From contig CP006977.1 in the NCBI GenBank assembly GCA_000508305.1, forward strand, positions 900,621-964,620: 64,000 nt of DNA, written 5' to 3'. Position numbers and translations under genes: made by a program. This stretch comes from Sulfolobus acidocaldarius SUSAZ. GTDB taxonomy: Archaea > Thermoproteota > Thermoprotei_A > Sulfolobales > Sulfolobaceae. Below, piece after piece: positions 17,565-64,000 of this stretch. The notes beneath the pieces are model-generated. The model saw only the letters and a list, made by a program, of their open reading frames with translations, was not told the origin of the DNA and did not search any database. The stretch's first letter is position 1, and each line of letters opens with the position of its first letter.

Positions 17565-17570
17565 TGAAAC

Positions 17571-18083: not shown

Positions 18084-18098
18084 AGGAGAGAACGAGAA

Positions 18099-18445: not shown

Positions 18446-19766
18446 ATGGTAGAGAAAGGTAAAGAAAAAGGGGAAGCTGTAACTAGGAGAGACCTGTTAA
18501 AAGTATCGAGTGCCGCATTAGTAGGGACAACTATAGAGTGGTATGACTTCGTTGTTGCTGCTTCAGCAGCTGCTGTAGTATGGCCATATGTATTCTTCCC
18601 CGAGGAAAACCCCGCTGCTGCATTGGTCTCTTCACTTATAACATATAGTATAGGCTTTTTCGTAAGACCTGTAGGTGCACTATTATTTGGACATTTTGCC
18701 GATAAATATGGAAGGAAAAGTGTTCTAATTTTAACACTCCTCACCATGGGTGCGGGAACATTAGGAATAGGTTTAACACCATCCTATGCGGCTATAGGAA
18801 TACTGGGAGCTGTACTGGTAGCTTTGTTTAGACTTTTACAGGGATTAGGATTAGGCGGAGAATGGGGCGCAGCCTCCACATTTGTGACAGAATTCGCAGC
18901 GAAAAATAGGTTTAGAGCTTTTTTTGGGCGAGTTGGGTACAACTAGGAGGACCTGTAGGTCAACTGGCAGGAAATGGTGCAGTTACGTTAGCTATTCTTC
19001 TAATGCCCAGAGCTCAGTTCTTAGACACTGGGTGGAGAATATTGTTCTATATAGGGGCAGCAATAATAGTTATAGGTGTGATATTGAGATACATGTTCTT
19101 GAGACACCGTTGTTTCAACAGATCCTGAAAAGTCAACAAGTATCGAGAGTACCTTTGGTAGAGTTGTTTAAGAAACAATGGCTAACGATCATAATCTTAG
19201 CTATAAGCTGGTGGTATATAAATACGTTAATATGGTCATTAACCAGTTTTGCTCAGGGATACATTACGTTGGTGAACCGTAGTATTCCCGCATATATAGG
19301 ACCATTTAGCGGAGTGATAGTAGGGGCTGTAGGAATTGTAGGTGTTATTATAGGAGCATATCTAGGCGACATTCTAGGTAGAAAGAAAGTACTGGTATCA
19401 TCTGCAGGTGCTGCGGCGTTATTTTCCTATCCATATATTTTTCTCCTATCTCAAGGTACAATAGTTTCATTATTCATTGGTCAAGCAATCATGGCATTTA
19501 TTATCCACTCAGGATATGCTGTCTTATCAGCATTCTTTGCTGAACAGTTTCCAACTAGATATAGAGCATCAGGGACAGGGTTTGTTTATCACATAGCAAA
19601 TCCCTTCTCAGGAGGAATAGCGCCGGCACTTTCTGCTGTATTTACCAGTATTTATGGTCCCTTGGGAGCAGTACCATATATTGGGGCTATAATGATAGCA
19701 TATTCTGTTACGTCAGTTATAGCAGGCTTATTTACCAAGGAGACATCAAAAGTGGAATTAAAGTGA
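18446..19766 (+). pseudogene. MHS-family transporter, broken by two frameshifts
   Basis: Homologous along its length to the intact transporter at 14407-15729: GTTIEWYDFVVAASAA at helix 1, GHFADKYGRKS in loop 2-3, GLGGEWGAA in helix 4-5, and FPTRYRASGTG near helix 11. The frame changes at a run of seven T (18919-18925), continues as FWASWVQLGGPVGQ in the next frame, and changes again near 19097 before LETPLFQQ. Both shifts equal one missing base, and all three segments together make a full ~440-residue transporter. Either the gene is dead or the sequence has two errors. It follows the second Rieske operon, so import of that substrate may be lost. Confidence 0.8.
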
Positions 19767-19917
19767 AAGAGCTTTTTTAATTGGTTTTTTACTCTCTAGT
19801 TATTTGTAGGAACAGGTGTGATATATTTTTTCCTAATACTCAATATCTGCTAGTGTAAAAGCAATAATGATAAGGTGTTAAAGATTTATTTATTTCTGTT
19901 CCTCTATATTAGAATGC

Positions 19918-21084
19918 ATGATATCGGGTTTTTCAAGTAAGCTCTTTAAAACCTATGAAGGTAGCGTATTTGACTTGATATCATTAGCTACGAGAGAGGC
20001 ATTAGATATGGCTAAATTAGAGATAGGAGACGTGGATGGGTTTGCAATGACATTTTTCCCGGGTCTCTTTGACGGTAAAGGCTACTTATTCTTCCCATTG
20101 CACCAAATAACACATTACTTAGGAATCAAGGCAAGATACATGGATCTTGTAGAATTTGGTGGTCCCTCGATCCTAGCCATGATATATAGGGCTGAAAAGG
20201 CAATAAGGGCAGGGGAAGCACAGAATGTATTATGTATAGCTGGAGGAATAGCCTCATTTATAAGAGAAAAAGGACCATACAATAACGTAATAAGCAAACT
20301 CTACCCATACATAACCTCCAACACATTTGAGGACTTTTATGAAGTGTACGATAAGATGGATCCAATAACCCATTACGCTTTAGTAGCAGATAGGCACAAG
20401 AGATTATTTGGGACTACAGACGAACAGAGGGCATTACTGGTAGTCAAACAAAGGAAAAACGGCTTAAATAATCCAAGAGCTCTATTTAAAAACCAGATAA
20501 CAGTAGATGATGTCATAAGCTCTCCAGTGGTAGCAGATCCACTTCACTTATTTGAGGTGGTTTATCCCATAGATGGATTCCATGCGTTTATTGTAAGTAG
20601 AAAAAACAAGGAGCTCAGACCAGTTGAGATTTTGAATTATGGCGAAATGCATTGGCCATCAGTTCCTGCAGAATGGGATATGGATATAACATATACACCC
20701 ACTATACAGAGCGTTAAGATTGCTAATGTAGATCTAAATAAGATTGATGCGTTCCAGCTGTATGATGCTACCAGCATCGGTGTTCTTACACAGATAGAGG
20801 ACTTGGGGCTTGTCGAGAAAGGGAAGGCTGGAAAATTTATTGAGGAAAATGACATATATTATCAGGGCAATATACCAATGAACACTGGAGGTGGGGCTTT
20901 ATCTCAAGGACAACCCGCATATATGAGCGGACCGCTAATGCTAGAAGAAGCATTACTTCAGTTAAATTACATGGCGCAAGGAAGACAGGTAAAGGACGTT
21001 TCAAAAGTCTTGATAAATGGTGTGGGAGGAGGTTTGGCAGGAAGAAATGATGCAATAACAATTGTTTTAGGTGAAAAGAAGTGA
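19918..21084 (+). CDS. Thiolase-fold protein lacking catalytic Cys and His (Ltp2-type retro-aldolase candidate)
   Basis: A 388-residue protein of the thiolase/SCP-x family, with KARYMDLVEFGGPSI where thiolases carry the nucleophilic Cys (here Gly81-Gly82) and NTGGGALSQGQP near residue 322 where thiolases have GHP (here GQP). The C-terminal GVGGGLAGRNDAI loop is kept. Without Cys and His it cannot be a classical thiolase. In actinobacterial steroid degradation, Ltp2 aldolases have the same fold and work with a DUF35 partner. The next gene here is a DUF35 protein with overlapping start, so a retro-aldolase acting on a beta-hydroxyacyl-CoA is my best reading. Confidence 0.8.
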   Translation: MISGFSSKLFKTYEGSVFDLISLATREALDMAKLEIGDVDGFAMTFFPGLFDGKGYLFFPLHQITHYLGIKARYMDLVEFGGPSILAMIYRAEKAIRAGEAQNVLCIAGGIASFIREKGPYNNVISKLYPYITSNTFEDFYEVYDKMDPITHYALVADRHKRLFGTTDEQRALLVVKQRKNGLNNPRALFKNQITVDDVISSPVVADPLHLFEVVYPIDGFHAFIVSRKNKELRPVEILNYGEMHWPSVPAEWDMDITYTPTIQSVKIANVDLNKIDAFQLYDATSIGVLTQIEDLGLVEKGKAGKFIEENDIYYQGNIPMNTGGGALSQGQPAYMSGPLMLEEALLQLNYMAQGRQVKDVSKVLINGVGGGLAGRNDAITIVLGEKK

Positions 21085-47852: not shown

Positions 47853-50507
47853 CTATTTCAGGAACCTTCTTACAGTAAGACCTAATACTGGAACTATTAG
47901 AGCTCCTGCTATTACAATCAACGTTAACATGGAGGGGTTACTGCCATCGCTATCCACACTATAACTATGTATAAGGAAGCCATAACTAGATAATGGTATA
48001 GGTGAAGCCCCTACATCTTGTGGTGTTACAGGAGAGTATAGGTAAATGTTCACATTATTTGTAGATTTGGGCAAATTAACACTTATATCATTTCTCCCTG
48101 GACTTAGTACTATATTATAACTTGTGTTATAATTCCCTGAGGATACTACTAACACTAGGTTTAGGGTGTAGTTGAGCCCGTTCATGAATTTTAATTTAAG
48201 CTTATGACCGTCTATATTTCCATTCATTAAGGTCACTTTGGAAAACATTTGGTTCACTGTATTAATTATGGCGTTAGTGTAGTTTAGTGCTTGATACATA
48301 AACCACGAAGGACCATTTGATGGAGGACCTGTTTGCCATGTCCAATCACTACCTTCAGCTACATACAGGTAGTTCCATAAGGTTGCTATTGGATTTGTAG
48401 AGTTTGGAGATATTGATGGTGGTAGATTAACTACTGGAGACAAATTCAAGCCTATTGCTTTAGTTAACGCAACTAGATATTCTCTTGCAGTTGCGACACT
48501 CTTCCAGATCTCTATTTTACCTAGATTTCCGTTATTCCAATAGTTCAGATTCAGATTCCATGAGGTTTCGGGCAAATTAGTTATTACACTGTATGGCTTA
48601 TGGGTCGCTATAGCTTGACTTGCTGTTTGTGTAATTAACCAACTTCCCTGATACTGAGAGAGTGCTTGATAGATTGCATTCAAATCCTGAGGTCCTGTAG
48701 ATGGATTAAATATGAGTGGGTTCTCGCCATCAAAAGCCACAGTAACCACACCTCCTGGGTTATTCATGTATATCATGGCTAATTCTTGGATTAGTTGTTG
48801 TGCAGTAAGCTGAGGAGGCTGACTAAAGAACTGAAAACTAAACTGATTAGACAATGCAGTGTCCCTAAATAGAACTATTGCACTTTGTCCTAAGCTATTC
48901 AATACTTCAAATGGTTGATATGGACTTGTATTTCCACTTACTACTGTAACATAAGGAAGATAAGCATCTTGATCCAGTATGGTATATTTAATACCAGTCT
49001 GATTATATAACGTTATTAAGCCCATGTTGAAAGCCTGTTCAGGTGTCCATGTTCCTGAGGGGCTCACATTAAATACTTGTTTAGTCATTTGGATACCCAT
49101 AAGTATTTGAGCCAAATCATCACTCCACCAACCATTATCAAGTATTATTGGCTGTAATGGGTGATAGAAGGGTACAGTTAACACTTCTACTTTACCCTCA
49201 TGTGCTAAACTCCTGTAAAGATTTAGAGTATAGTTTACAGCCTGTATATCATGTGTAACATTTACATTAATTCCACTTGCGAATTTTGGATTGCTCTGGG
49301 ATAGAATAGTCAACCATTGATATAACAGGACTGGAGTAAAATCTATTGTGACGCTTACATTATACTTATTAATTAATAACGCTTGTAATTCATAAGCTCC
49401 TACTAGGCTGGAATTCCAATAAAAGTCTTGACCAGTGTGAATCCATACCCAGGGCTGTTCCCAGACTCCTTGAGGGGACAGATATAACGGCTGATGCATG
49501 TTCCATACTATTACTAGACTAATGGGTCTTTTACCAGTAGTGTTAAGAACAATTAGTTGTGGCAAATTGAAAGTTCCCTGTAGTGAGTTGGAATAGTATA
49601 GATTAACAACAGGATTATAGACACCTTGACTGAAAGAGGCGGTAAATGGAAGAGTTATGTTATTCTGTCCCGGATTCAGGGTTATTCCGTTATACGATAG
49701 TTGATCGTTCTGAATATTCACTACAATATTTACATTTACAGGACTGTTAAGCTTGTTGTCTACAGTCAAGAATATTTTACCATTCTGGTTAACCGTATAT
49801 ACATACTTATCGTAGTTCCCACCAGTAATCGTTAAAAAGGTATAAATAACCTGAATAGCAAAGTTCTGCCCATTATTACTATAGTATTTGTTCTCAGTGA
49901 GATCATGATACACCCACTGAACCCATGTCCCGTTAGGGAATGGGCCTATGACTGCAGTATAATTGCCCCACAGAGGATTATATACCATACTAACATCAGT
50001 AATATTGCTCCAAGGCAACCCTGTTTGTGGTCCTGATGCAATTCCATAGTGAACCACAATATTATCTGGTGCTCTTCCTATAGTCGTAATTAATATTGAA
50101 CCATTACCAAGAACAGTAGCATAAGTAATCCCCACCACTGGTGGATTTACCTCTAAATTCCAGTTCCAGAACGGATGATTATCATAGTTTATCCATGTAT
50201 TTGTAGTGTTATCGTGGAAAACCCATCCAATCCAAGTCCCATTCTGAAAAGGACCTATTGTTGCAGAGAAGTTATTCCCGTTCCAAGTCATTGGTGTATC
50301 ATACACTTGAGTCCACGATGACTGGGGTCCAGGTTGTATTCCCCAGTGTAATATAACATCGTCACTGCTGGGTAGTCCAGATAGATATATTGTGACATAT
50401 CCATTTGATGTGACATTAAAGTTAACACTGACATTTCCAGTTTGCGCTAGAGCTAGTACAGACAAGATGGATATTACGAATATACTTAGCACTAGGACTA
50501 CTTTCAT
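47853..50507 (-). CDS. amyA: Secreted GH57 alpha-amylase with N-terminal starch-binding-like repeats
   Basis: An 884-residue exoenzyme. Order: signal peptide (1-21), two similar beta modules (about 30-128 and 130-220, each with GPQ, IGPFxNGTW and W[VI]xHD motifs, like starch-binding CBM25-type modules), a linker beta domain, GH57 domain from WNMHQPLYL (about 338), and a C-terminal membrane helix. The probable nucleophile is in GTWTPEQAF and the acid/base Asp in VAFDGENP. It digests starch at the cell surface for the Mal transporter. It follows malG by 86 bases. Confidence 0.92.
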   Translation of the reverse strand: MKVVLVLSIFVISILSVLALAQTGNVSVNFNVTSNGYVTIYLSGLPSSDDVILHWGIQPGPQSSWTQVYDTPMTWNGNNFSATIGPFQNGTWIGWVFHDNTTNTWINYDNHPFWNWNLEVNPPVVGITYATVLGNGSILITTIGRAPDNIVVHYGIASGPQTGLPWSNITDVSMVYNPLWGNYTAVIGPFPNGTWVQWVYHDLTENKYYSNNGQNFAIQVIYTFLTITGGNYDKYVYTVNQNGKIFLTVDNKLNSPVNVNIVVNIQNDQLSYNGITLNPGQNNITLPFTASFSQGVYNPVVNLYYSNSLQGTFNLPQLIVLNTTGKRPISLVIVWNMHQPLYLSPQGVWEQPWVWIHTGQDFYWNSSLVGAYELQALLINKYNVSVTIDFTPVLLYQWLTILSQSNPKFASGINVNVTHDIQAVNYTLNLYRSLAHEGKVEVLTVPFYHPLQPIILDNGWWSDDLAQILMGIQMTKQVFNVSPSGTWTPEQAFNMGLITLYNQTGIKYTILDQDAYLPYVTVVSGNTSPYQPFEVLNSLGQSAIVLFRDTALSNQFSFQFFSQPPQLTAQQLIQELAMIYMNNPGGVVTVAFDGENPLIFNPSTGPQDLNAIYQALSQYQGSWLITQTASQAIATHKPYSVITNLPETSWNLNLNYWNNGNLGKIEIWKSVATAREYLVALTKAIGLNLSPVVNLPPSISPNSTNPIATLWNYLYVAEGSDWTWQTGPPSNGPSWFMYQALNYTNAIINTVNQMFSKVTLMNGNIDGHKLKLKFMNGLNYTLNLVLVVSSGNYNTSYNIVLSPGRNDISVNLPKSTNNVNIYLYSPVTPQDVGASPIPLSSYGFLIHSYSVDSDGSNPSMLTLIVIAGALIVPVLGLTVRRFLK

Positions 50508-50593
50508 AAATAAAAATAGATATTCAAGTTTATAAATTTTTCGGCGTAATTATTTTAATCATATAAAAAATATTACAAAACAAAAATAAAGCC

Positions 50594-51451
50594 TTACTTA
50601 CCTCCTGACAGGGAATATACGTTCCTAATGTACTTTTGAAAGGCTATGAATATAGCCATAATTGGTACACCCATAATTACAGAGAACGCCGCAAAAACAT
50701 TGTACAAGGTTGAGTGATTTGTTATTGCCAAATAGTACATCCCTAATGTTAAGGTCCACATATTCCCTGAGGTTATGAAAGCATTTGCCAGTGCATAATC
50801 AGTGTAGGCACCTAAAAAGGCAAGTAACATTATGAAGGCAACTATTGGTTTTGTCATTGGTAAAAGTACTCTTATATATGCTCTAAATCTTGAAAGACCG
50901 TCAACCATTGCAGCCTCCTCATACTCAGGAGGTATAGTATCTATGAATATTTTAACTAGATAAGCACCGAAAATAGATGTACCAGATGAATAAGCAAGGA
51001 TCAGACCATAATACGTGTTTATCAAATGCAAAGAAGCAAACATTACATATAACGGTATCACAGTAGCCACAGACGGTAAGAAAGTTAGTATGTAGAGGAA
51101 AACGATTAGAGCCTTCTTTCCTGGAACGTTCAATCTAGATAAAGCAGCCCCAGTCAAAAAGGCTACTAATACAGATATAATTATTGTACCTAAAGCCATG
51201 ATGAGACTATTTCTTAACCAGACAAAGAAGGGCTCCTGGAACAAAATACCATAATAAGCATTCAAACTTATTTTGCTAGGCAGGAGAGAGCCTAGACTTA
51301 CAGAAGCCAATGAGGGGATATCGTTTAATGAAGTGATTACTATATAGTAAATTGGAAATATTGAAATTATTGCCATTACAGTTAAAACTAAATACGATAT
51401 TGCCAATCTAATTATCTTACCTAATGTCCTCTTGTTACCGACCCTCTGCAC
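50594..51451 (-). CDS. malG: Maltodextrin ABC transporter permease MalG
   Basis: A 285-residue permease with six membrane helices. The EAA loop that contacts MalK is EYEEAAMVDGLSRFRAYIRVL (split E-A-A-MVDG, near residue 188-200). The N-terminal KRTLGKIIRLAISYLVL helix and P-loop spacing fit the MalG/LacG type. Its start overlaps the stop of malF. Confidence 0.92.
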   Translation of the reverse strand: MQRVGNKRTLGKIIRLAISYLVLTVMAIISIFPIYYIVITSLNDIPSLASVSLGSLLPSKISLNAYYGILFQEPFFVWLRNSLIMALGTIIISVLVAFLTGAALSRLNVPGKKALIVFLYILTFLPSVATVIPLYVMFASLHLINTYYGLILAYSSGTSIFGAYLVKIFIDTIPPEYEEAAMVDGLSRFRAYIRVLLPMTKPIVAFIMLLAFLGAYTDYALANAFITSGNMWTLTLGMYYLAITNHSTLYNVFAAFSVIMGVPIMAIFIAFQKYIRNVYSLSGGK

Positions 51452-52335
51452 TATCCCCTCCCCTCCAATATTCTCGAATACCTGAACATAATAACGGCCA
51501 TAATTGCAAGTATGATCGTACTTATTATGGAGTATGCTGAAGCAAGCGCGTACTGGTTATAGTCAAACGCCTCCTGGTAAGAATAAACGATCAGTATATC
51601 CGTAGACGTTCCAGGACCTCCTCCTGTGAGTATAAATACGGGATAAAAGTTATTCCAGGTGAATATGAAACCACTTACCCCAACAAATACTAATGTACTC
51701 TTCATCATTGGTAATGTTATTTTACCGAACCTTGTCAACATACCTGCTCCGTCAACCTCAGCTATTTCATACAGCTCTCTGGGGATGCTCTGCAATGCTG
51801 ACAGAAAAATAGAGGTATAATAAGGAAAAGATAACCATACATTAGTCAGAATGAGTGCCACCCAAGCATATGTGGTATTGTTAAGCCAATTTACTGGAGC
51901 TATTCCTATTAAACCTATTATCTTATTTATTATACCGTAAGAGTAGTCCCACATCCCTGACCAAATAAGCAAGGATATATATGCTGGAAATGCCCATGGT
52001 ATTAGAAAAGTCGAGAAGAAAACATTCTTAAATTTCAGGTCACTTTGATTTAGTATTAATGCTAGGAAGAAACCTAATATCATCATTGGTATTAGGCTCC
52101 CTATGGTCCAAATTGCCGTATTTTTGAGTAGTTCAACAAAATAAAAGTTAGGATTAGTTAAGATATTAATATAATTTTTAAAACCAATATAGGAATACTG
52201 GAAGAAATGAAATAGGCTGAAATTCGTGAACGAAATATATACAGCGTAAGCAACTGGATACAAGAATAGGAACAGAACTATTGCGATTATGGGAAGAAGG
52301 TAAAAATAGTTAAAAATTCCTTGTCTTTTACCCAC
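51451..52335 (-). CDS. malF: Maltodextrin ABC transporter permease MalF
   Basis: A 294-residue permease with six helices. The EAA loop reads LYEIAEVDGAGMLTRFGKI near residue 190. It lacks the large periplasmic insertion of E. coli MalF, as usual in archaea. It lies ten bases after malE and overlaps malG by one base (shared stop/start), giving coupled translation. Confidence 0.92.
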   Translation of the reverse strand: MGKRQGIFNYFYLLPIIAIVLFLFLYPVAYAVYISFTNFSLFHFFQYSYIGFKNYINILTNPNFYFVELLKNTAIWTIGSLIPMMILGFFLALILNQSDLKFKNVFFSTFLIPWAFPAYISLLIWSGMWDYSYGIINKIIGLIGIAPVNWLNNTTYAWVALILTNVWLSFPYYTSIFLSALQSIPRELYEIAEVDGAGMLTRFGKITLPMMKSTLVFVGVSGFIFTWNNFYPVFILTGGGPGTSTDILIVYSYQEAFDYNQYALASAYSIISTIILAIMAVIMFRYSRILEGRG

Positions 52336-52345
52336 TTATTATCAC

Positions 52346-53812
52346 CTAGTACAAGACATCTGGTATAGCTAAAATAAAGTCTGGGTAGTATCCATTAGTC
52401 TGCATCTGCTGTATCATGGTTGATTCCATTTCTTGTGCAGCCTGCTGAGCCGTTATTTGACCTGCATAGTACTCAGTGACGTATTCATGGAAGGTGTTCC
52501 AATAGAAACTCATTTGTGGAATATTGGGGAACTTCTGTCCATAGTTAGCCTGTTCAAATATCCCTGCCATTATACTGCCGAGATAAGAGGGTGTTATGTT
52601 TCCTGCTTTCAATTGAGCAAGAGCTTGATTATAACTAGCGAGATATGCAGGTATATCCCCTGCTATGTTCCATAAGTTCATTTCTGCCTTATAGCCAGTG
52701 ACGAACTGGATGAACAGAAGTGCAGCTTGTATTTGCTGTGGAGTGGCACCGCTAGCTTGTGGACTAGATATGACCCAACCCGTAGATCCTATAAATGGTG
52801 CTGCTCTTAACCCTGTTTGGCTTACAATTGGTAATGGTGCTGCTCCTAAATTAGAGCCTAGTGCACTAACGTACTTCTGTAGATCCCATGGTCCATCAAA
52901 TATTATGGCAGCCTTACCGCTGGTAAATAACTGTTGTTCTAATGTCGTTGAAATGCCTTGCGGATTAACTCCCATCACATAAGTTAAGTTGTACCAGAAC
53001 TGTAGAGCATTAACCATCGCAGTGGAGTTCAATTCAGGAATGCCTTGACTATTAAATATCTGACCGCCAAAACCAGCAAACCATGCAGCAAATCTATAAC
53101 CATATTCTTGACCCATACCATAGGCTATCCCCCACACGTTGTAAGTCTTATTCACGTTTAACGCAATATTCATTAACTGTGCAGTTGTATTTGGAGGATA
53201 TGGTACATATTTCTTGTTGTAGAACATGACAATATAGTTGACGTTGTCAGGAAGCCCATAGATTTTGCCACTTAGGTTGAAGTTATTGATCGCTATAGGT
53301 AGATATTCACTGAATACGCTGGAATTGAGATACTGAGAGAGATTTAGTAACAATCCGGCAGCAAATAATTTACCAGCATCATCACTGGAATCCCTATATA
53401 CTATTGGGGCTTGACCTGCTTTTGCTGCGGAGGCGAAGTTAGAGGTGGCGATTCCTACACCATAAGTGACTTGAACGTGAATCCACGGATACTGTTGCTC
53501 AAAAGCAGCTAAAGTCTGATTGAATGCTCCATCCTCTGATGGGCTATATGTATCCCACACAGTTATAGTTACTGGCGTTTGCGACGAAGTGGAAGATACA
53601 CTACTACTCGAAGAACTTGAGGATGCGCTAGAAGTTGAAGAAATACTACTGGATGATGCGCTAGAAGTTGAAGAAATACTACTGGATGATGATCTACCCA
53701 TCAGCAGATATACGCCGACTCCTATTACGATTATTAAAACCACTACAACAACTATTATTATTTGGGTATTAGATACTCCTCCTTTTTTCCTTCTCTTGTA
53801 ATTTTTGTTCAT
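52346..53812 (-). CDS. malE: Maltodextrin-binding protein MalE with class III signal peptide
   Basis: A 488-residue extracellular binding protein. The N-terminus KNYKRRKKGG-VSN followed by a long hydrophobic helix is a class III (prepilin-type) signal, cut by PibD after GG; such sugar-binding proteins assemble in the bindosome. A Ser/Thr linker (about 40-75) follows, then a solute-binding fold (VTITVWDTYSPSEDGAFN at its start). A 33-base unit is duplicated in the linker. TATA and start spacing show a leaderless mRNA. It heads malE-malF-malG-amyA. Confidence 0.94.
   Translation of the reverse strand: MNKNYKRRKKGGVSNTQIIIVVVVVLIIVIGVGVYLLMGRSSSSSISSTSSASSSSISSTSSASSSSSSSSVSSTSSQTPVTITVWDTYSPSEDGAFNQTLAAFEQQYPWIHVQVTYGVGIATSNFASAAKAGQAPIVYRDSSDDAGKLFAAGLLLNLSQYLNSSVFSEYLPIAINNFNLSGKIYGLPDNVNYIVMFYNKKYVPYPPNTTAQLMNIALNVNKTYNVWGIAYGMGQEYGYRFAAWFAGFGGQIFNSQGIPELNSTAMVNALQFWYNLTYVMGVNPQGISTTLEQQLFTSGKAAIIFDGPWDLQKYVSALGSNLGAAPLPIVSQTGLRAAPFIGSTGWVISSPQASGATPQQIQAALLFIQFVTGYKAEMNLWNIAGDIPAYLASYNQALAQLKAGNITPSYLGSIMAGIFEQANYGQKFPNIPQMSFYWNTFHEYVTEYYAGQITAQQAAQEMESTMIQQMQTNGYYPDFILAIPDVLY
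53622..53684 (-). repeat. Tandem 33-base repeat in the MalE linker
   Basis: A 30-base segment (53622-53651) recurs exactly at 53655-53684, period 33 bases. It encodes two copies of SSSSISSTSSA. The frame is kept, so changes in copy number would lengthen or shorten the glycosylated stalk without breaking MalE. Confidence 0.8.
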
Positions 53813-53835
53813 CGGATTAACTTAAACACGTAATT

Positions 53836-53846
53836 ATTTATAAACT
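53836..53846 (-). promoter_or_regulatory. TATA box of malE
   Basis: On the minus strand GTTTATAAATA is centred about 28 bases before ATG 53812, predicting a leaderless mal mRNA. A longer TA run (53849-53863) lies just upstream. Confidence 0.55.
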
Positions 53847-54015
53847 TAATATATATATAAAATATTTAGGGTCTAAACTTAAGGACGCCTCCGTTGAACA
53901 TGTCAACTTAAGTATTATAAGATGTAGATTACGAAATGATATTAGTATTATTAATTAGCCTTTATTTAATTTACTTAAATTTATTTCTAGTTTCCAGTAA
54001 AATTTTTAAACCACA

Positions 54016-55116
54016 ATGAGTAGGGTAAAAAAGATAAGCGTGCAATCATCGGCATTTCTCCAACTATCAGATATATGGAAATCATTTAGAATCAAAAAAC
54101 AGGTTATTGAAGTTCTCAAAGGGGTCTCCTTAGATGTGAATAAAGGGGAATTTGTGGTAATATTAGGTCCGTCAGGAGAAGGCAAAACCACACTTCTCAG
54201 AATAATATCAGGGCTTGAGGTACAGGATAAAGGTGAGGTTTACATTGACGGAGAAAGGGTCGATAATATTCCACCTAAAGACAGAAACGTAGCTATGGTA
54301 TTCCAAAACTACGCCATATACCCATTTATGTCAGTCTTTGATAATATAGCCTTTCCTCTAAAACTCAAAAAACTACCCAAGCAAGAGATAACAAAAAAGG
54401 TCAGGGAGGTAGCCGAATTATTGCAGATAGAAAAGCTCCTTGATAGAAAACCTTACCAGTTGTCGGGTGGACAAAAGCAAAGAGTAGCTATTGCACGTGC
54501 GCTAGTCAAAGGTGCGCAACTACTATTGATGGATGAACCTTTAGCTAATCTTGATGCACAGATAAGGATGATAGCAAGAGAGGAATTAAAAGAACTTCAG
54601 AGAAAATTAGGATTCACTGTAGTATATGTGACACACGATCAGACTGAAGCCCTTGCCCTAGCCGACAGAGTAGCATTACTTAGAAAGGGTGTACTTCAGG
54701 CATATGATAAACCCATGAAGTTGTTTAAGAGACCTAATAATATATGGGTAGCATCATTTCTAGGCAATCCACCTATGAATTTACTTAAAGTAAAGGTTGA
54801 TGAAGGTGCAGTCTTATTAGATGAGTATAAGATTGAAGTTCCCTCGGAAATTTCGGAGAAACTGAAGGGTAGAAGTGAAGTTATCATGGGTATAAGACCA
54901 GAAGATATAGATATAGGAGGGAAAATTAAAGGAAGCGTGGAATTAACTGAGCCTCTAGGTCTTTTCTCTGTGATACATGTAAAAATACGTGAGGATGAAA
55001 TAAGGGTAGTCACAAATTCATCAAGCTCTTACGTTAAAGGCGACACTATACAGTTAGCCATTTCAGGGAATAAAGCTCTATTTTTCGATGAAAGTACAGG
55101 GGAGTTAATAACATAG
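54016..55116 (+). CDS. malK: MalK, ATPase of the maltodextrin transporter
   Basis: A 366-residue ABC ATPase. Walker A GPSGEGKTT (51-59), Q-loop VFQNYAIYP, signature LSGGQKQR (about 149), Walker B LLLMDEPLA (about 170) and switch VTHDQTE are all intact. The C-terminal OB (TOBE) domain has GIRPEDID near 293. The Walker A Glu in place of the usual Ser/Cys-Gly is a mild variant. It is divergent from malE across 200 bases and supplies energy to MalFG. Confidence 0.93.
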   Translation: MSRVKKISVQSSAFLQLSDIWKSFRIKKQVIEVLKGVSLDVNKGEFVVILGPSGEGKTTLLRIISGLEVQDKGEVYIDGERVDNIPPKDRNVAMVFQNYAIYPFMSVFDNIAFPLKLKKLPKQEITKKVREVAELLQIEKLLDRKPYQLSGGQKQRVAIARALVKGAQLLLMDEPLANLDAQIRMIAREELKELQRKLGFTVVYVTHDQTEALALADRVALLRKGVLQAYDKPMKLFKRPNNIWVASFLGNPPMNLLKVKVDEGAVLLDEYKIEVPSEISEKLKGRSEVIMGIRPEDIDIGGKIKGSVELTEPLGLFSVIHVKIREDEIRVVTNSSSSYVKGDTIQLAISGNKALFFDESTGELIT

Positions 55117-55451
55117 TGAATCTTGTGATGATTAGCCATGGTAAGGTATTAAACTAAAAATGCTTAGTAAAAAAATAACCTTTAACCTTCCATAAAATTG
55201 TTTTGCACTTATTCAAAGCAAATTTTACTGCTAAACAGTAAATATTACGTTAAATGTGAATAAGACTTAGATTGTCATAAGATCTATTAATTTCTTAGCT
55301 AAAGCAAATTATTCTCAGTTATTAAGTCTTCTTGTAATTCATCATGATGAATCGGACGAAACTGTACCTAATGCATAATATACGACGACATTTAAGAAGA
55401 GAAATCAAAAAATGTTTAAAAAAGGCTAACTTATTTACTAAAATTGATTCC
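55117..55451. other. Intergenic region with a small stem-loop
   Basis: Between malK and the convergent CBS gene. TTTACTG (55224-55230) and CAGTAAA (55236-55242) form a 7-base perfect stem around CTAAA. No gene is visible; short open frames here lack coding character. Confidence 0.45.
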
Positions 55452-55934
55452 TTAGTCAGATCCTGTTCCACAACCACAGTACCCAAACTCGTCAATCTCC
55501 AGACCACATACAGGACATGAGTTTAAATCACTTGCTTCTATCCTCATGTTCGAGAGATTATCCAAATCCACTAACGCTTTCACTAAATCCCTTATTGAAA
55601 CAATACCGTGAACCTTATCGCCCTCAACTACCGGTAGGTGTCTAAATCCGTTGTCCACCATTGTTTTCAAAGCAGTATAAATATCAGTGCCTATTTTTAC
55701 TCCTTTGACCTCTCTGCTCATATAATCTCCTACTGTTGCATCAAAATTACCATCTGCAAATGCTTTAACTACATCTCTTTCTGTTATTATTCCAACTACT
55801 TCCTCATTGGCATTTACCACTACTAATGCTCCTATATTATGGTTTCTCATTTCTCTAGTTGCCCTCAAAAGACTATCATTTTCTCTTACCACAAGGACGG
55901 GCTTACTTATATACGTTTTTAATTCTGATAGCAT
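55452..55934 (-). CDS. CBS-domain pair protein with C-terminal zinc ribbon
   Basis: A 160-residue protein. Two CBS motifs (about 8-60 with GIITERDVVKA, and 70-125 with LPVVEGDKVHGIVSIRDL) are followed by a small cysteine knot, CPVCG...CGCG (about 140-156). CBS pairs bind adenosyl ligands such as AMP, ATP or SAM and act as energy sensors. The zinc ribbon suggests binding to nucleic acid or a partner protein. Confidence 0.88.
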   Translation of the reverse strand: MLSELKTYISKPVLVVRENDSLLRATREMRNHNIGALVVVNANEEVVGIITERDVVKAFADGNFDATVGDYMSREVKGVKIGTDIYTALKTMVDNGFRHLPVVEGDKVHGIVSIRDLVKALVDLDNLSNMRIEASDLNSCPVCGLEIDEFGYCGCGTGSD

Positions 55935-56166
55935 AAGTATATACTTGCTTAAATCATTTAAAAATATAAATAAGTAATCTCTGAATAAAGATACCTTAAA
56001 CTACATTTTAACTTTTTAAAAATATGTTGAAACATAATAAAATAACCATAATTATAATTTTACATTCCCCTTAAACAGTTCCTCGTGTAACGCCTGGTTT
56101 ACATGTTAACTTCCTATATATTATGCATACTAAATTAGAAAATTTTAAAATCATAACGAGCAAATG

Positions 56167-56610
56167 TTATTTAACGTTAAACACAATCTCTAATAATTGC
56201 TTGGAATTCCTATAACGCCAATAATCTCGTATTATCTGACCTACTTCTCCAGTAGTGTTTGTGTGAGATTTATTACATGCATTTATGTTCCAATCATCTA
56301 TAATGACAATGTTTAATTGTGAAACCTCAGAAGGTACAGGAAAGAGATCATATATCTGGTCACCATATTTCCTTTCTGCCTGAACCCTATCAAGAACTTC
56401 AGTCCTTATTAATACATTTTCCTGGACTTTCTTATTAGCCAAGTTGAATATTTCAGTGATCTCCTCATCGGAAGGTTTTCTCTCAAACTTAACAGTTAGC
56501 CTACCGTGATCATCTTGGGTGTAAACACTAGCTGTCCACTTTGCTCCTAGAACCTTGACTACAGCTCCTTTAAGGACATGAAGGGCAGTGTGCGTCCTTA
56601 CCTCTATCAC
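56167..56610 (-). CDS. alaX: AlaX-type alanyl-tRNA editing protein
   Basis: A 147-residue stand-alone editing domain. The zinc site has HTALHVLKG (H-x3-H) near residue 7-11 and CNKSH (C-x3-H) near 112-116. It removes Ser or Gly from mischarged tRNA(Ala). It is of the short class with no synthetase or C-terminal extension. It starts about 70 bases after the thioredoxin reductase gene ends, on the same strand. Confidence 0.88.
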
Positions 56611-56681
56611 AGAATCTATTAGTAAATTTAATGATAATAAGTTTTCATGAATACTATTATGGACAACAAAACCTTTCAGAC

Positions 56682-57665
56682 CTAACTTAGCTTTAGGCTA
56701 ATCTTTTTCTTCTCAGCCTTCCAGTCAACTGTTATAGGTCCTAAACCACGTTTACTTCTTAAATAGTTATAAGCTGACAATGCAGCCTTAACACCCTCAG
56801 CAGCTGCTATAACTGCCTGCTTGTAAGGAGTTTGTGTGACATCTCCAGCCGCAAAAACTCCTTCCCTACTTGTCCTGCCAAATTCGTCTACAATCACCTC
56901 TCCCTTATCATTTAATTCTAGAAATCCTTTCAGAAAATCAGTATTTAAAACATACCCCATTTCAATTATAACTCCTTCTACCCTCAGCTTTGTTGTTTCT
57001 CCCCCTTTATTGATAACCACTTCTTCCACTTTTCCGTTACCGTTTATCTGAAGAACTTTAGATGATGTGAAGATCTTGATGTTTGAGTTAGATATAATTT
57101 TCTTTATCAATTCCCCGTCTCCTGATAATTGTCCTGAAGAGGTAACGTAATATGCCGGAATAGCATGTTTGGAAAGTATCTCAATCGCCTCTAATCCTGG
57201 CTCTCCTTCACCGATTACCATAGCAGGTTTTCCCTTAAAAAAAGCAGCGTCGCAAATAGCACAGTAGGAGACTCCCTTACCTTTGAACTCTTGTTCTCCT
57301 GGGACATTTAACTCCCTCGGAGTCTTACCAAATGCTAAGATTATGGTCTTAGACTGATAAACATCATGAATCCCATTGACTATGAAAATTTCACCTTCTT
57401 GACTTATCTTTTTAACCTCCTCTCCTAAGACAAACTCAGTGTTAAATCTCCTGGCTTGCGTATATATCTTCTGAGATAAACCTAAACCACTTATACTTTC
57501 GATTCCAGGATAATTTTCAATAAGGTCTGTTAGGGTGAGTTGACCTCCTAGATCTTTAGACAACACTAAGGTAGATAATTTTTGTCTAGCTGAGTATAAA
57601 GCTGCACTTAAACCAGCTATACCACCGCCAATTATTATTGTATCATACACTTTGTTGGTGTTCAT
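56682..57665 (-). CDS. trxB: Thioredoxin reductase-like flavoprotein lacking the NADPH-binding motif
   Basis: A 327-residue flavoprotein. FAD motif [10 protein letters not shown] (about 13-22), redox-active CAIC (about 137-140), [13 protein letters not shown] where GxGxxA is usual, and [18 protein letters not shown] near 285. The HRRxxxRA segment that binds the NADPH phosphate is absent; the equivalent reads [14 protein letters not shown]. Thermoplasma TrxR also lacks this motif and does not use NADPH well. So this enzyme may reduce thioredoxin-type partners with another donor, or use NADH. Confidence 0.88.
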
Positions 57666-57812
57666 ATATTTCTTTTTAACTAAATATAATAAAAAGTTAA
57701 CTTATACTAAAGCAAGGTTGTACAAAAATTTTGCCGACCGCCTCTCAATTTTTCTGGTGATTAGAGAAAATTAAACATGTCTTTTTATTACCTCAAACAC
57801 ATATCACATAGT

Positions 57813-58346
57813 ATGGAAGTAGCAACTTTAGGTGGAGGCTGTTTCTGGTGTACCGAAGCGGTCTTTAAGAGAGTCAAGGGAGTGATAAGTGTAAAACCAG
57901 GTTATTCCGGTGGAAAAGTTCCAAATCCAACTTATGAGGAAGTATGCACAGATGAGACTGGACACGCTGAGGTAATCCAGATAACCTTCGATCCCTCAAT
58001 TATCACATATAGGGAATTACTTGAGATATTTTTTGAAATTCATGATCCAACTACGCCCAATAGACAAGGTAATGATGTAGGCTCTCAGTACAGATCAATA
58101 ATACTCTATCATAGTGAAGAGCAGAAGAAGACTGCTGAAGAGATGATAAGGATCTATGAGAAAAAGTTAGGCAAAAAGATCGTTACTGAGTTAGTACCTT
58201 TTGAAGCATTTTATGAGGCTGAGGATTATCATCATGACTTTTACGACAAGCACAGGAATTATCCTTACTGCAAATTAGTTATTGACCCTAAAGTGAAGAA
58301 ATTTATGAAAAACTTCCCAGATAAGGCTTCAATAAGAATTCAATGA
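57813..58346 (+). CDS. msrA: Peptide methionine sulfoxide reductase MsrA
   Basis: A 177-residue MsrA with the active site [12 protein letters not shown] (Cys near residue 10). Family motifs [29 protein letters not shown] and [20 protein letters not shown] (with gaps) are all present. ATG 57813 (MEVATLGGG) is the family-like start; an in-frame ATG at 57777 would add 12 residues. It repairs oxidised methionine. It is divergent from the thioredoxin reductase, a plausible electron source through a thioredoxin. Confidence 0.92.
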
Positions 58347-59165
58347 AAGGATTATTACAAATGCGATATTTATAAATAGATTCCTTAATAGACTATAACT
58401 ACATCTCGATAAAAATTTTAATCTTTTGATCTTACACTCCTCTCATTTACCATATTTATTAATTTATCGACACTGAACTATTAAAATATTCTGGGTATAA
58501 GCTTTTATATACATAAGAGTAGTGGATAGCAATTCAAAAATATTCATTGATTGAAAATTGTACTAAAACCGCCGGTTTAAGGAGATCTAGATGTTGAAAA
58601 AACTACAAAATGATAGTCTAGTAGGTTCAGGTCTTAGCAGTTTTTTAATTAATTGTAACAAATTATATAATATTATAATAGAGTAGGTAAGTAGACCTGG
58701 ATTACTAATAGATTAGGGGTTGACTATTAAAAGCCTCAATTTTCTACCAACTATTTTCATGTAATAATATTTAAATACATGCAAATTGAAAAACTCTATA
58801 CTTAAACTTTTAAAAAATACTCCTGGAAGGAATGGGACTGACAAGAGCAAATAGTTTTTATCTATATATTCTAAAAATTAAAGTAAAAATGATTTTTATA
58901 GTTGGAAATTTTCTAGTTTCTTGCAATTGTGTACTATTATATAAGTATTGGTGAAGATTTAGCGTTTTGTAAAATTACGGGAAGAAGATTTTGTACGCTT
59001 TTCAAACGTTAAAACTATTCTACAGTATAAATAGCAGGAAGGAAATAACACAGGAGACGTAGCTATCAGTCAACATCCTGTATAGTTAGTGTATTTTTAT
59101 ATCAATTTAGTTTAAAAAAGACTATTATTTTCACGTATTTAAAAACCTCTGTTTTATCATTAAGA
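58347..59165. other. Long intergenic region before the ArnR-type regulator
   Basis: About 820 bases with no gene. It holds an odd palindrome AAACCGCCGGTTT (arms AAACCG and CGGTTT around one base, about 58565-58577), a spaced inverted pair CAGGTCT...AGACCTG (about 58628-58698), and the regulator promoter at the right end. The length suggests lost genes or a complex control region. Confidence 0.5.
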
Positions 59166-59984
59166 ATGTCTTCCATGAACAAGAGAGTCTTTGACATACT
59201 AAGAGAATTAGACTCTGTCGTTGACTTCTCCAGGGCAAAACTACAGTGGGATATATTAATTATATTAGCAACCAAAGGACCCTCATCAACAACAGAAATC
59301 TCACAAACAATAAACACAAGCAGAAAATCCATAATAGACGCAATAAGAAAACTAATTGACAAAGAACTAGTGGCAAGAGTAAAACATGATATTTATGAGC
59401 TAACGGATAAGGGCAAGGAACTTCTAAACAAAGTCGATTCGATATTAGGTCTAGAAATAAAGAATAATAACACTCATGATGGTCAAAATATGAATGATAA
59501 TAGTTTAGTTTCAGAGAACTTCTCTCAGTATTTCTACCTAATTACATTATTCAAGATGATTATAACTAATCATGATGGGTTAAACCTAGATAAAGTAGCT
59601 CAAGAACTAGGAGTTTCGAGGCAAACACTTAAGTATTATCTTGAACTTTTTGAGGAGAAGAAGCTACTGAAAGTTATAAGCAAAAAGAATTACTTTAAGA
59701 AGACTATCTATAAGTGTATGTTGATGAGTGAAGGAAGGAGAATATTATTTAAGCTACCTGAATTTATGAAGATGAAAACCAATCTTCCACTTAAAATCAT
59801 TTTAAGACTAACAAATAGCTACACTCTTGAAGCAGCTAACCTTAAGGTTATGGGATTTATAGTAATCTCAGTACCATTACTTATGTACTTTAGGAATGAG
59901 TTAGATCTATTTGAACTGCCTTGGTTATGTATAGTAATATTCTTAGCACTTCTAAGTATATTTTCCCAGATCCTTAACAGATGA
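59166..59984 (+). CDS. arnR1: Membrane-anchored winged-helix regulator, ArnR/ArnR1 type
   Basis: A 272-residue one-component regulator. The first winged helix (about 20-95) has STTEISQTINTSRKSIIDAI; a second (about 125-185) has LDKVAQELGVSRQTLKYYL; two C-terminal membrane helices (about 225-243 and 250-270) anchor it. This matches my memory of ArnR and ArnR1, the membrane regulators beside the archaellum operon of S. acidocaldarius. Its left neighbour (msrA) fits ArnR1; its right neighbour (a kinase) fits what I recall beside ArnR. It could be a recombinant of the two. Confidence 0.7.
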   Translation: MSSMNKRVFDILRELDSVVDFSRAKLQWDILIILATKGPSSTTEISQTINTSRKSIIDAIRKLIDKELVARVKHDIYELTDKGKELLNKVDSILGLEIKNNNTHDGQNMNDNSLVSENFSQYFYLITLFKMIITNHDGLNLDKVAQELGVSRQTLKYYLELFEEKKLLKVISKKNYFKKTIYKCMLMSEGRRILFKLPEFMKMKTNLPLKIILRLTNSYTLEAANLKVMGFIVISVPLLMYFRNELDLFELPWLCIVIFLALLSIFSQILNR

Positions 59985-60062
59985 CTCCTTTTAATAATCT
60001 CATTTTGTGGAAGACAATTTCACTCACCTTAGTAAAATTCAATCTCATTCCAATGAACTTGC

Positions 60063-60132
60063 CTTAAAAATACTTTTCCACATAGAGAAAATTCAATTTA
60101 AATCAAAATAACAAAATTGTTGTCCACACATG
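60063..60132 (+). repeat. 70-bp repeat, copy A
   Basis: It begins CTTAAAAATACTTTTCCACA, includes AAAATTCAATTTAAATC and ends TTGTCCACACATG. It differs from the reverse complement of copy B at only about three positions. It sits about 105 bases upstream of the kinase start. Confidence 0.75.
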
Positions 60133-60236
60133 TTAACCTAATATAAAAGATAGAATAGTTTAAAAGCTAGTAATTTCATATAATTACTTGCATAAATTAC
60201 ACCAGATGAAATTAAAATGGTACGAGGTGTTAACTA

Positions 60237-62162
60237 GTGGAAATTAGGACTCTTCACAGGAGAATTTTTTCATTACTAGTAGTAAAAGCTATGTTAATGT
60301 CGTTTATATTATTGATATCATCGGCAATAATTCTCACATCCTTTTTTAACTATATACAGATAGCCCTAATAGTTTTGGGAGTAGTTTTAGTTTTACTCTC
60401 GTTATTCTCTCCGAAAGTATCTTATATATCTTCGACCTACTTAATAGGTGTAACAGCTTATTTTAACATGGGATTTTCACTCGTTCAGTCCCTAATAAAT
60501 ATAGTACCTATTATAGGAGAAATAAACCTGTTAAATCAACTACTAAAGACGCCAACAACCACAATAATATCTAGCCTTTTCTCACTAGCATTGTTAAATT
60601 TAGGCATAAAAGGTTATGAAATGTATTTGAATAAACATGCTGATATTGTGAAGTTAGATTCCATAATTTTCTCCCAACACGGTCTTCCTAAACAGGCTAG
60701 CTGGAATATTGTTGTTAATTCTGAGGTGAAGTTCATTAAGTCAAACGAAAAGCTCATATTAAACAATACACCAGAAGCGAAATATGAACTTTGCCCAGTA
60801 TTGGTAGACAATGAATATTACGTGCCTAACAAAGTGACAGGTTTAGCCTTTGAGGGAGAGGTTATAAGGATTAATTACTCTCCAGTTGATGGTATACCAT
60901 ATGAGAAATTCAGAAACTGCTTTACGGTTTTTGAGGTTGAAGGACTACCTCCAGATACCAGCTTTGTAATTGAAATTAATGGTACGTCATTGAAGGTCAA
61001 GGATAGAAGGTTTGCCAAACTATCATTGGAGCCTTTATATTGGAAGGTAAATGAGATAAGGATATCCAGAGACGATGAAGAAGAAATTTATGAACCTGAC
61101 ATAAAAGAGGGTTTAACTTTTAGAGGTGGGACAGTTAAAATAAACTTCAGGAGGAAAGTGATTAGATATAAAACAGCTAAAATACCGTCTATAGAAAATT
61201 GGGACCCCGGAATTTGGGTGGGTCAAGAGGTTTATGGTTACAGGGTAATTGAAGTGATAGGATTAGGTGGAAATGGATATGTTATGAAAGTGGAAAAGAA
61301 CGGTTCATTATACGCTATGAAAGTTCTCTCAGTAAATAAGTTCACCAATTCGCTAGAGTACCTTGATAATCTGCTAAAGGAATCTGAAAATTTGGAAAAA
61401 CTATCGAAGGATCCAAGGTTCGTTAGTATATATGGATCATTCATAGACAAAAACAACATTCAATCAGCGTTAGCTGGGGATTATACAAGCTACTATAAGT
61501 ACCCACCAGCAATTGTGATGGAGTTTATGGATGGTGGCACATTATTGGATTTAATTAGTAGAGTTGATATTGTACAGTCTAAATATTGGCAGTACATAGT
61601 CAAACTCATCATAAAAGAAATAGGCACAGCACTGATGTTTTTGCATAAAAGAGGGTATGTTCATCTGGACGTAAAGCCACAAAATATATTTCTTAAACAG
61701 AAGATCAACGGTGAGCCAGAAGTGGTTTATAAAATCCTCTTCTCCTCGTCGGGAATGATTAAGTTGGGAGACCTAGGTAGTTCAGTGAGGGTAGGAGAGA
61801 AGATCTCACAAGCAACACCAGCCTATTCACCCCCAGAGCAAATAGAGGCAGTAATAACAGGAAAAGGAGCACAACCCTCCATGGACAATTACGCATTGGG
61901 TGCTACACTATATAGGTTACTTACCATGAAGAACCTAGATTACGTTAGTTATTTGGATAAAGCTTTCGATGAATATATTGACGGGGATCCTAAGATCGCG
62001 ATGAAGTATGTAAATATGGCTAAAATGAGTATGGTGAATTTTAGACCTAAACTGCCTCCTAATACCCTGCCGGAGTTGGCTAACATATTGCAAGGAACAT
62101 TAGTGGTAGATCCAAGGAGGAGACTGACCAGCTACGACATAGTAAACATATTAGAAAGGTAG
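60237..62162 (+). CDS. arnS: Membrane Ser/Thr protein kinase, probable ArnS
   Basis: A 641-residue kinase with 3-4 N-terminal membrane helices (about 12-60 and 68-125), a middle beta-rich region (about 145-325) and a C-terminal kinase domain. G-loop GLGGNGYV (about 341), Lys in YAMKVL, catalytic loop HLDVKPQN (about 475), metal Asp in GDLGSS (DLG instead of DFG, about 512) and SPPEQ as the APE region are intact, so it should be active. S. acidocaldarius ArnS, a kinase needed for starvation-induced archaellum expression, lies beside ArnR; this gene may be ArnS. It starts at GTG 60237. Confidence 0.8.
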   Translation: MEIRTLHRRIFSLLVVKAMLMSFILLISSAIILTSFFNYIQIALIVLGVVLVLLSLFSPKVSYISSTYLIGVTAYFNMGFSLVQSLINIVPIIGEINLLNQLLKTPTTTIISSLFSLALLNLGIKGYEMYLNKHADIVKLDSIIFSQHGLPKQASWNIVVNSEVKFIKSNEKLILNNTPEAKYELCPVLVDNEYYVPNKVTGLAFEGEVIRINYSPVDGIPYEKFRNCFTVFEVEGLPPDTSFVIEINGTSLKVKDRRFAKLSLEPLYWKVNEIRISRDDEEEIYEPDIKEGLTFRGGTVKINFRRKVIRYKTAKIPSIENWDPGIWVGQEVYGYRVIEVIGLGGNGYVMKVEKNGSLYAMKVLSVNKFTNSLEYLDNLLKESENLEKLSKDPRFVSIYGSFIDKNNIQSALAGDYTSYYKYPPAIVMEFMDGGTLLDLISRVDIVQSKYWQYIVKLIIKEIGTALMFLHKRGYVHLDVKPQNIFLKQKINGEPEVVYKILFSSSGMIKLGDLGSSVRVGEKISQATPAYSPPEQIEAVITGKGAQPSMDNYALGATLYRLLTMKNLDYVSYLDKAFDEYIDGDPKIAMKYVNMAKMSMVNFRPKLPPNTLPELANILQGTLVVDPRRRLTSYDIVNILER

Positions 62163-62255
62163 TAAGGTTTCATTTGACATTTCTATGATGATACGTTTTA
62201 CTAGTAAAAAATTAAATCTTAATTTTTCTCCTTCAATCGAGAAGTCTGTTTTATA

Positions 62256-62632
62256 TTAGAAACTACAGCTGATTTCAGCATCTGGTCTTCCACCTTCTAC
62301 AATGTTTTTGTGCAGTTATCCAACCCTCTAGCGATGCAATGTGGAACAATGTATGCCTACCGTTCGCGTCTCCTGGGGCATAAATGTTATCTAGCTTAGA
62401 AGCCATACTATAATCAACCTCTATCTCACGTTTCTTACCTTAAGGTACTATAACCCGCTATACCACTGGTTTCTTGAATTCTGCCAGTAGATACTAAAAC
62501 TTCATCAAGGTACCTCTCAGCTTTCTCACTTATCACCTTCTTTTCCCTCCATTCTCTGCCTTTACTCCCTTAAATCTCTCCTTAATTATTTCATCACTCA
62601 ACTCTCTAAGTCTGTTTTCTAACACCTACTGA
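62256..62632 (-). pseudogene. lpd: Dihydrolipoamide dehydrogenase remnant
   Basis: Read on the minus strand, pieces in changing frames match flavoprotein disulfide reductases: ENRLRELSDEIIKERFKG, then REKKVISEKAERYLDEVLV and STGRIQETSGIAG, then VDYSMASKLDNIYAPGDANG with RHTLFHIASLEGWITAQ, the FAD-binding GD motif. At least three frameshifts and internal stops kill it. The whole N-terminal half (first FAD motif and the redox Cys pair) and the dimer domain are missing. Its upstream end abuts the 70-bp repeat copy B, which may mark the break. Confidence 0.75.
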
Positions 62633-62637
62633 ATAAG

Positions 62638-62707
62638 CATGTGTGGACAACAATTTTGTCATTTTGATTTAAATTGAATTTTCTTTATGTGGAAAAGTAT
62701 TTTTAGG
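62638..62707 (-). repeat. 70-bp repeat, copy B (inverted relative to copy A)
   Basis: Its reverse complement begins CTAAAAATACTTTTCCACAT, matches copy A at about 67 of 70 positions and ends TTGTCCACACATG. Copies A and B are inverted and lie 2.5 kb apart around the kinase gene. Confidence 0.75.
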
Positions 62708-62734
62708 GTGAGTTTATTTTATGATGGCGAGAAT

Positions 62735-63160
62735 GTGAACAAGTTTGATTTCCTCATCCTTACCCAAATAATTTCTACCTAAGGAATATGTTAAAAACAT
62801 TTTTAAGGCACTAGGTAGTGTTTATTGAGTTACAGAGGATATGTTAGACTCTTGGACCGCTTTAGTGGGAAGCGGCCCCCGCTTTTATCTCAGAAATTAT
62901 TGATGCCTTTGCCTTAGGTGCAGTTGCTTGTGGAATGCCTAGGGGTGTGACTTATTATGCCATACTTGACATGATTGAAGGGACTATAAAGATACTGAAA
63001 AATAATTTGAATCACTCCCATGATGCTCAGGGATCAGGTTATTACTCCTGCAGCTACTATAATTAGAGGTTTGATGGTAATGGAGAGTGAGGGCGTTAAG
63101 CCGGCATTAACTAACACTATTGAGTCAGCATATCAGAGGAGATATGCAATAGGAGAGTAG
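62735..63160 (+). pseudogene. proC: Pyrroline-5-carboxylate reductase remnant (C-terminal half)
   Basis: Matches the ProC dimer domain: KEYVKNIFKALGSVY, an in-frame TGA, VTEDMLDSWTALVGSGP, then after an extra C in a C-run AFISEIIDAFALGAVACGMP, and after another shift MMLRDQVITPAATIIRGL and GVKPALTNTIESAYQRR, ending at TAG 63158-63160. The pattern ALVGSGPAF is diagnostic. The N-terminal NADPH domain is not recognisable. Two frameshifts and a stop make it dead; an intact proC must be elsewhere for proline synthesis. Confidence 0.8.
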
Positions 63161-63246
63161 ATTGATGGGAAGTTGAGAGAAAATAGTGATGGTCAGAAGA
63201 GGAGGATTTCTACTACTTTTTCTAGACCTTGTCTACCGCTCCATAA

Positions 63247-63295
63247 ACTGACTTTCTTCCTGCCCTAAAGGGTGAAGTTTTCCTGATTTTGTAAT
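63247..63295 (-). repeat. TnpB-element 3'-end-like repeat, copy 6
   Basis: On the minus strand: ATTACAAAATCAGGAAAAC, stem ACCCTTTAGGGC, then AGGAAGAAAGTCAGT. The full length is kept, from the ACAAAAT start to the GTCAGT end seen in copy 3. Confidence 0.6.
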
Positions 63296-63350
63296 TTGAA
63301 CAAAGTTTAAGTTAAGATAGGGCACTATAAGAAACCTAAAACTTGAACTA

Positions 63351-64000
63351 TTAGAAATCACCTTCAATGTTCTTCATGATTATCTCATCGAACTCCTTAG
63401 GTCTAGGAAGTTTTATTGAATTTAGCGAATTGATAAATTCCTCTTTATTGTTTATATTAAATAACTTGTTGTACTTTTTCTCAAAACCTATTGTGGACGA
63501 AGGTTTTCCACTTATCCCAAATCCACAAGCAGAACCAGAAGTGTGAGCTGGGAAAACTTCAACGTAATCCGGTAATACCTTAATTTTTTGTAAACTATAA
63601 AAGAGTTGTTCAGCGGAGTTCTCACCTACTATATCTATTCTACCAATTCCACCTACAAATAACGTGTCTCCAGTTAATACCGCCCAAGGTTCTTCTCCTC
63701 TCCTTAAGTCAGTTATAATTATAGAAACGCTGTCCGGAGTATGCCCCGGGGTATAAAGAAACTTTATTTTAACGTTACCCACTTTAATTTCTTCATTATC
63801 CTTAACTTTTTGCGCAAATTTAACCTTCGTGCTCTCATGCATATAAACGTTAGCTCTAGTCATTTCACTTAACTTCTTAGCTCCAGATAAATGATCAGCG
63901 TGAGTATGAGTGTCTATAATATAAGATATCTTCATGTCGTATAACTCTGATAAGTTCATTAATTCTTCTATCAAATCTATTTTTGGGTCAATAATTATTA
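63351..64000 (-). CDS. Metallo-beta-lactamase-fold hydrolase, persulfide dioxygenase-like (5' end beyond window)
   Basis: The frame is open to the window edge and reads ...IDPKIDLIEELMN upstream of the first internal start, so the N-terminus is missing here. Metal ligands: HTHADH (H-x-H-x-D-H), then His in YTPGHTPDS, Asp in TGDTLFVGGIGR and His in FPAHTSGSACG. The order and the FxxH-x5-G pattern resemble ETHE1/GloB-type enzymes, which oxidise glutathione persulfide or hydrolyse thioesters. In Sulfolobus a sulfur-related role is plausible; no rhodanese is visible beside it. Confidence 0.82.
   Translation of the reverse strand, partial: IIIDPKIDLIEELMNLSELYDMKISYIIDTHTHADHLSGAKKLSEMTRANVYMHESTKVKFAQKVKDNEEIKVGNVKIKFLYTPGHTPDSVSIIITDLRRGEEPWAVLTGDTLFVGGIGRIDIVGENSAEQLFYSLQKIKVLPDYVEVFPAHTSGSACGFGISGKPSSTIGFEKKYNKLFNINNKEEFINSLNSIKLPRPKEFDEIIMKNIEGDF

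Follow-up and report, generated by a model that had tools for sequence, protein, structure and literature searches.

A hybrid arnR1/arnR regulator gene and the probable loss of the archaellum operon by crossover between its flanking paralogues in Sulfolobus acidocaldarius SUSAZ

Introduction

The closest described systems to the locus reported here are ArnR and ArnR1 of Sulfolobus acidocaldarius DSM 639 (Saci), two membrane-anchored winged-helix one-component regulators encoded beside the archaellum (arl) operon and the kinase gene arnS; the locus tags of ArnR, ArnR1 and ArnS are presumably Saci_1180, Saci_1171 and Saci_1181, respectively. Saci ArnR, unlike ArnR1, binds the promoters of aapF and upsX, whose induction by starvation depends on it; starvation itself induces arnR and not arnR1 (PMC6396743).

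The SUSAZ strain of S. acidocaldarius originates from Los Azufres, Mexico, and is listed with a genome of 2.06 Mb and a GC content of 36.3% (PMC5127849). We analysed a stretch of 64,000 nucleotides of this genome (the window), which corresponds to positions 900621-964620 of a single contig of 2,061,920 bp; the GC content of the window is 36.6%. The window encodes a regulator that shares with Saci ArnR and ArnR1 its domain order and a nearly identical first winged helix, but that, unlike them, joins an arnR1 promoter and N-terminus to an ArnR body and has no archaellum operon beside it. The gene that follows (60237-62162, plus strand) encodes the ArnS orthologue, an intact membrane Ser/Thr kinase of 641 aa with a C-terminal Pkinase domain (PF00069), which is 88% identical in amino acids to the kinase beside Saci arnR and lies in the same place, directly after arnR; the archaellum genes that ArnS helps control in Saci are, however, missing. 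In the literature searched, no paper reported this hybrid or the loss of the archaellum.

Results and Discussion

The only genome of the same genus that was compared, each species being represented by one genome, is G023 (2,225,959 bp), which we take to be that of DSM 639. Gene names at the corresponding Saci locus (L061) were assigned by order and homology, from what we take to be the Saci_1171-1181 locus: msrA is followed by arnR1 (L061 9088-9897), arlJ-I-H-F-G-X-B (9942-16285, minus strand), a 125-aa ORF between arlB and arnR, arnR (16944-17753) and arnS. By blastn against L061, window positions 50054-59413 aligned with 1-9335 at 90.5% identity and positions 59175-62251 with 16944-19986 at 82.0% identity. 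The two blocks overlap inside the regulator gene (59166-59984), and the 7.6 kb of L061 between them is missing from the window. The left block is colinear with Saci through msrA (57777-58346, plus strand; PF01625; 93% amino acid identity to the gene adjoining Saci arnR1), a 0.8-kb gap and the 5' end of arnR1, while the right block, from 59175, is colinear with arnR and arnS. This alignment, with msrA-gap-arnR1 to the left of the missing operon and arnR-arnS to the right, bears out the preliminary description of the locus, in which the regulator was followed directly by an ArnS-like kinase; the ORFs lie as it had placed them. The ORFs found in the 0.8-kb gap were rejected as genes, being short (at most 45 aa inside the gap), and in an Rfam scan of 58200-60300 every match was below the gathering score.

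The regulator gene (59166-59984, plus strand) encodes a protein of 272 aa with two winged-helix Pfam matches, at about residues 25-95 and 127-175, and with C-terminal hydrophobic segments that are conserved in an alignment. A three-way codon alignment with Saci arnR1 and arnR divided it into three parts, all on the plus strand. Sites are arnR1-like up to 59203, the first 38 nt (59166-59203) matching arnR1 at 9 of 11 informative sites and carrying 9 bases absent from arnR. The candidate crossover interval (59204-59384), which encodes most of the first winged helix, corresponds to a tract where Saci arnR1 and arnR are identical at 181 of 181 positions. From 59385 to 59984 the sites are arnR-like, and this part encodes the end of the first winged helix, the second HTH, a putative sensor region and the hydrophobic segments. 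The switch of informative sites from arnR1 to arnR gave a maximal chi-square of 17.9, a value reached in 22 of 20000 permutations. At the protein level, residues 1-17 match ArnR1 at 17/17 positions compared to 9/14 for ArnR, and from residue 74 onward the identity is 142/199 (71%) to ArnR versus 86/195 (44%) to ArnR1, in agreement with the hybrid regulator that had been suspected. Over its full length the hybrid is 75% identical to Saci ArnR and 58% to ArnR1.

The 819 bp preceding the hybrid (58347-59165, plus strand), its arnR1-type promoter-side region, align over their full length and colinearly with the Saci msrA-arnR1 gap; the Saci arlB-arnR gap gave no comparable match to the DNA upstream of the hybrid start. 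Together with the site switch, these colinear 819 bp indicate that the promoter and the N-terminus derive from arnR1 and the remainder from arnR. In a tree of the post-junction part, the hybrid grouped with Saci ArnR (support 99/98) and Saci ArnR1 was their sister (100/99); the duplication therefore predates the split of the two lineages. The window differs from both Saci copies at 15 sites within the 181-bp tract. The two Saci tracts (L061:9126-9306 in arnR1 and L061:16973-17153 in arnR) are identical including synonymous sites, while the genes are strongly diverged elsewhere, a pattern suggesting that the segment encoding the DNA-binding part underwent gene conversion in the lineage of Saci.

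Genome-wide presence and absence of archaellum genes were assessed by targeted searches. No archaellum gene lies between msrA, the hybrid and the kinase gene. The archaellin family PF01917 had no match in the SUSAZ genome, nor did ArlJ or ArlX, Saci being matched in each search; queries with ArlI and ArlH recovered in SUSAZ only distant pilus or KaiC-like paralogues, which are also found in Saci. Likewise, the missing 7.6 kb used as a DNA query had no match anywhere in the SUSAZ genome, so that arlB, arlX and arlJ, which it had been proposed to look for outside the locus, were found nowhere. The ArnR box (TCGAC-N5-GTCGA, with at most one mismatch) is present at the Saci arlB promoter (G023:994368) and had no match near the SUSAZ locus; matches elsewhere were no commoner than those of a reversed control pattern. 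The cells would be non-swimming, since the genome is without the swimming apparatus, but the non-motility suggested in the preliminary description is less certain, as Aap pili can give twitching (PMC11178785).

Colinearity with Saci breaks exactly inside the homology shared by the two paralogues, which argues for a deletion by crossover between them, and we consider it very probable that the archaellum operon was lost in this way, leaving the hybrid behind. The ancestral layout would have been msrA - arnR1 - arlJIHFGXB (on the opposite strand) - small ORF - arnR - arnS, in which arnR1 and arnR, as parallel paralogues, would have kept their first winged-helix segments nearly identical. One reciprocal crossover within 59204-59384 would then have excised about 7.85 kb, with the whole arl operon and its ArnR boxes, and in the same step placed the promoter and N-terminus of arnR1 in front of the arnR body, next to arnS. 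The two Saci tracts lie 7,847 bp apart, which is the deletion size deduced here, and the absent stretch of about 7.85 kb comprises in Saci the 3' part of arnR1, arlJIHFGXB, the 125-aa ORF and the 5' end of arnR. That all this took place in a single crossover event is our inference.

The same junction might be produced by an assembler that collapsed two direct copies and dropped the loop between them, the living strain still carrying arnR1-arl-arnR. In Saci the junction tract is repeated exactly over 181 bp, and at such places short-read assemblies fail; however, the genome forms a single closed contig with a high completeness estimate, nothing of the arl genes in the missing segment is left in it, and the same window shows other large differences from Saci. 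We regard such an artefact as improbable.

The direction of the change was considered among 31 genomes of the family Sulfolobaceae, 16 of which have archaellin. A strong ArnR match was found in 14 of these 16 genomes versus 1 of the 15 without archaellin (Fisher p = 7e-6), and the one archaellin-less genome that keeps ArnR is SUSAZ. The 14 other archaellin-less Sulfolobaceae resemble SUSAZ in giving no PF01917 match, but they are also without ArnR; SUSAZ alone keeps ArnR and a junction that reveals how the operon went. In the outgroup loci the arl operon occurs with arnR nearby, mostly with arnR divergent from arlB and a homologue of the 125-aa ORF between them, so the gene order now seen in SUSAZ, whose possible ancestral status had been raised as an objection, is very probably not the older layout. 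The family distribution, the outgroup layout and a duplication that predates the split make a loss in the SUSAZ lineage the simplest reading of the older state. Two genomes deviate from the general pattern: close to the arl operon of one archaellin genome (G003:C15:7856-8365), the ArnR-like matches are weak, fall into short pieces and contain a stop codon, and the arnR of this genome is possibly decayed; another (G013) has arl genes and no strong ArnR match.

Integration and excision leave identical local joints, and a genus ancestor with msrA-arnR-arnS and no archaellum at this site could thus have been the starting point, the S. acidocaldarius lineage acquiring arl together with a further arnR copy when a circle integrated at arnR through a single crossover. 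This is very unlikely, as arl lies beside or near arnR throughout the family, mostly with the same 125-aa ORF homologue between arlB and arnR, ArnR is otherwise never found without arl among the family genomes compared, so that an earlier loss and a later regain would be required, and both Saci paralogues fall within the genus in the tree, leaving a donor from outside it unsupported. It is most unlikely that arnR1 converted the N-terminus of arnR and that arl was deleted in an unrelated event: gene conversion does happen in Saci, as the 181/181 identity amid proteins otherwise about 47% identical illustrates, but the endpoints of the two events would have to coincide, whereas a single crossover accounts for the junction as well as for the 0.8 kb of colinear DNA before it.

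The reading frame of the hybrid is open, with a dN/dS of 0.22 against Saci arnR for the whole gene and of about 0.27 past the junction. Decay of the hybrid was rejected, the frame being open and relative-rate tests non-significant both against ArnR1 (17 versus 11, p = 0.26) and against outgroups (9 versus 8, p = 0.81). A dN/dS of about 0.2-0.3 with no significant rate excess appears in line with a working protein, although these values do not separate constraint that acted before the fusion from constraint that acted later. The dS against Saci is 0.65 and 0.42 in the arnR-arnS stretch, and 0.10-0.31 in many neighbours; this higher divergence weighs against the main reading, as part of this stretch may have come by exchange with another lineage. 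Wholesale import of the arnR-arnS segment was rejected as the main account, because the identity per kb along the region varies widely (0.78-0.97).

The remaining Arn network is intact in SUSAZ: ArnA (FHA, zinc ribbon), ArnB (ArnB_C, VWA), an ArnC-type kinase and ArnS are present with 88-99% amino acid identity to Saci. Both the Aap genes and the Ups region are also present. The preliminary description had held that the known target of the regulator and kinase was gone, which is too strong: the arl genes are absent, but the pilus loci whose aapF and upsX promoters ArnR binds in Saci (PMC6396743) are intact, and the regulator is therefore not clearly devoid of targets. Upstream of aapF, the last approximately 75 bp are identical to Saci, and the sequence farther upstream, where the published ArnR fragment lies, has diverged. 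The aapA-like pilin (L103:13839-14360) is 81% identical to Saci over the aligned part and carries an insertion, its neighbouring Aap genes being 95-97% identical; this may reflect diversification of an exposed pilin.

Saci ArnR and ArnR1 are identical over residues 18-73 of the first winged helix, and therefore their difference in binding to aapF and upsX must come from other parts of the proteins. As these parts are ArnR-like in the hybrid, apart from the extreme N-terminus, the hybrid is expected, judging from its sequence, to regulate pili in the manner of ArnR while being expressed like arnR1. It would still act as ArnR does at the promoters of the Aap and Ups pili, now under the arnR1 promoter, which is not known to respond to starvation in Saci. 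More tentatively, the hybrid might be more than a scar: by bringing the ArnR body under the arnR1 promoter once the archaellum was gone, the recombination might have turned the Arn network into a circuit dedicated to Aap/Ups pilus control, and owing to the 181-bp direct repeat the archaellum could be lost repeatedly, and in one step, in S. acidocaldarius, an extension that we hold to be possible and rather doubtful.

The locus provides a case, at base resolution, of a whole motility operon lost, as we read it, in one step through duplicated flanking regulators. From the identical tract in S. acidocaldarius one would predict that this laboratory model, too, can undergo such a loss. Additionally, a natural strain that keeps ArnR, ArnS, ArnA, ArnB and ArnC and has no archaellum makes the roles of this network outside swimming testable. 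As one genome per species was compared, the deletion may be common to all strains of this lineage or confined to some of them.

Two further segments of the region are absent from Saci. About 21 kb at 9614-30704 of the window has no counterpart in the colinear Saci region, which joins at about 954,994; its genes encode two Rieske ring-hydroxylating oxygenase alpha subunits, an AMP-binding ligase, an MFS transporter, a thiolase-like protein, an E1 dehydrogenase and a 2-hydroxyacid dehydrogenase, and it has the look of an island for aromatic or organic acid degradation. A stretch of about 4.4 kb (62252-64000 and its continuation for about 2.6 kb past the end of the window, L107:1-2635) separates arnS from the next gene shared with Saci; it encodes a protein with a metallo-beta-lactamase fold, a short TrmB-like fragment and an MFS protein, the last of which is possibly truncated, its best Pfam match starting mid-protein.
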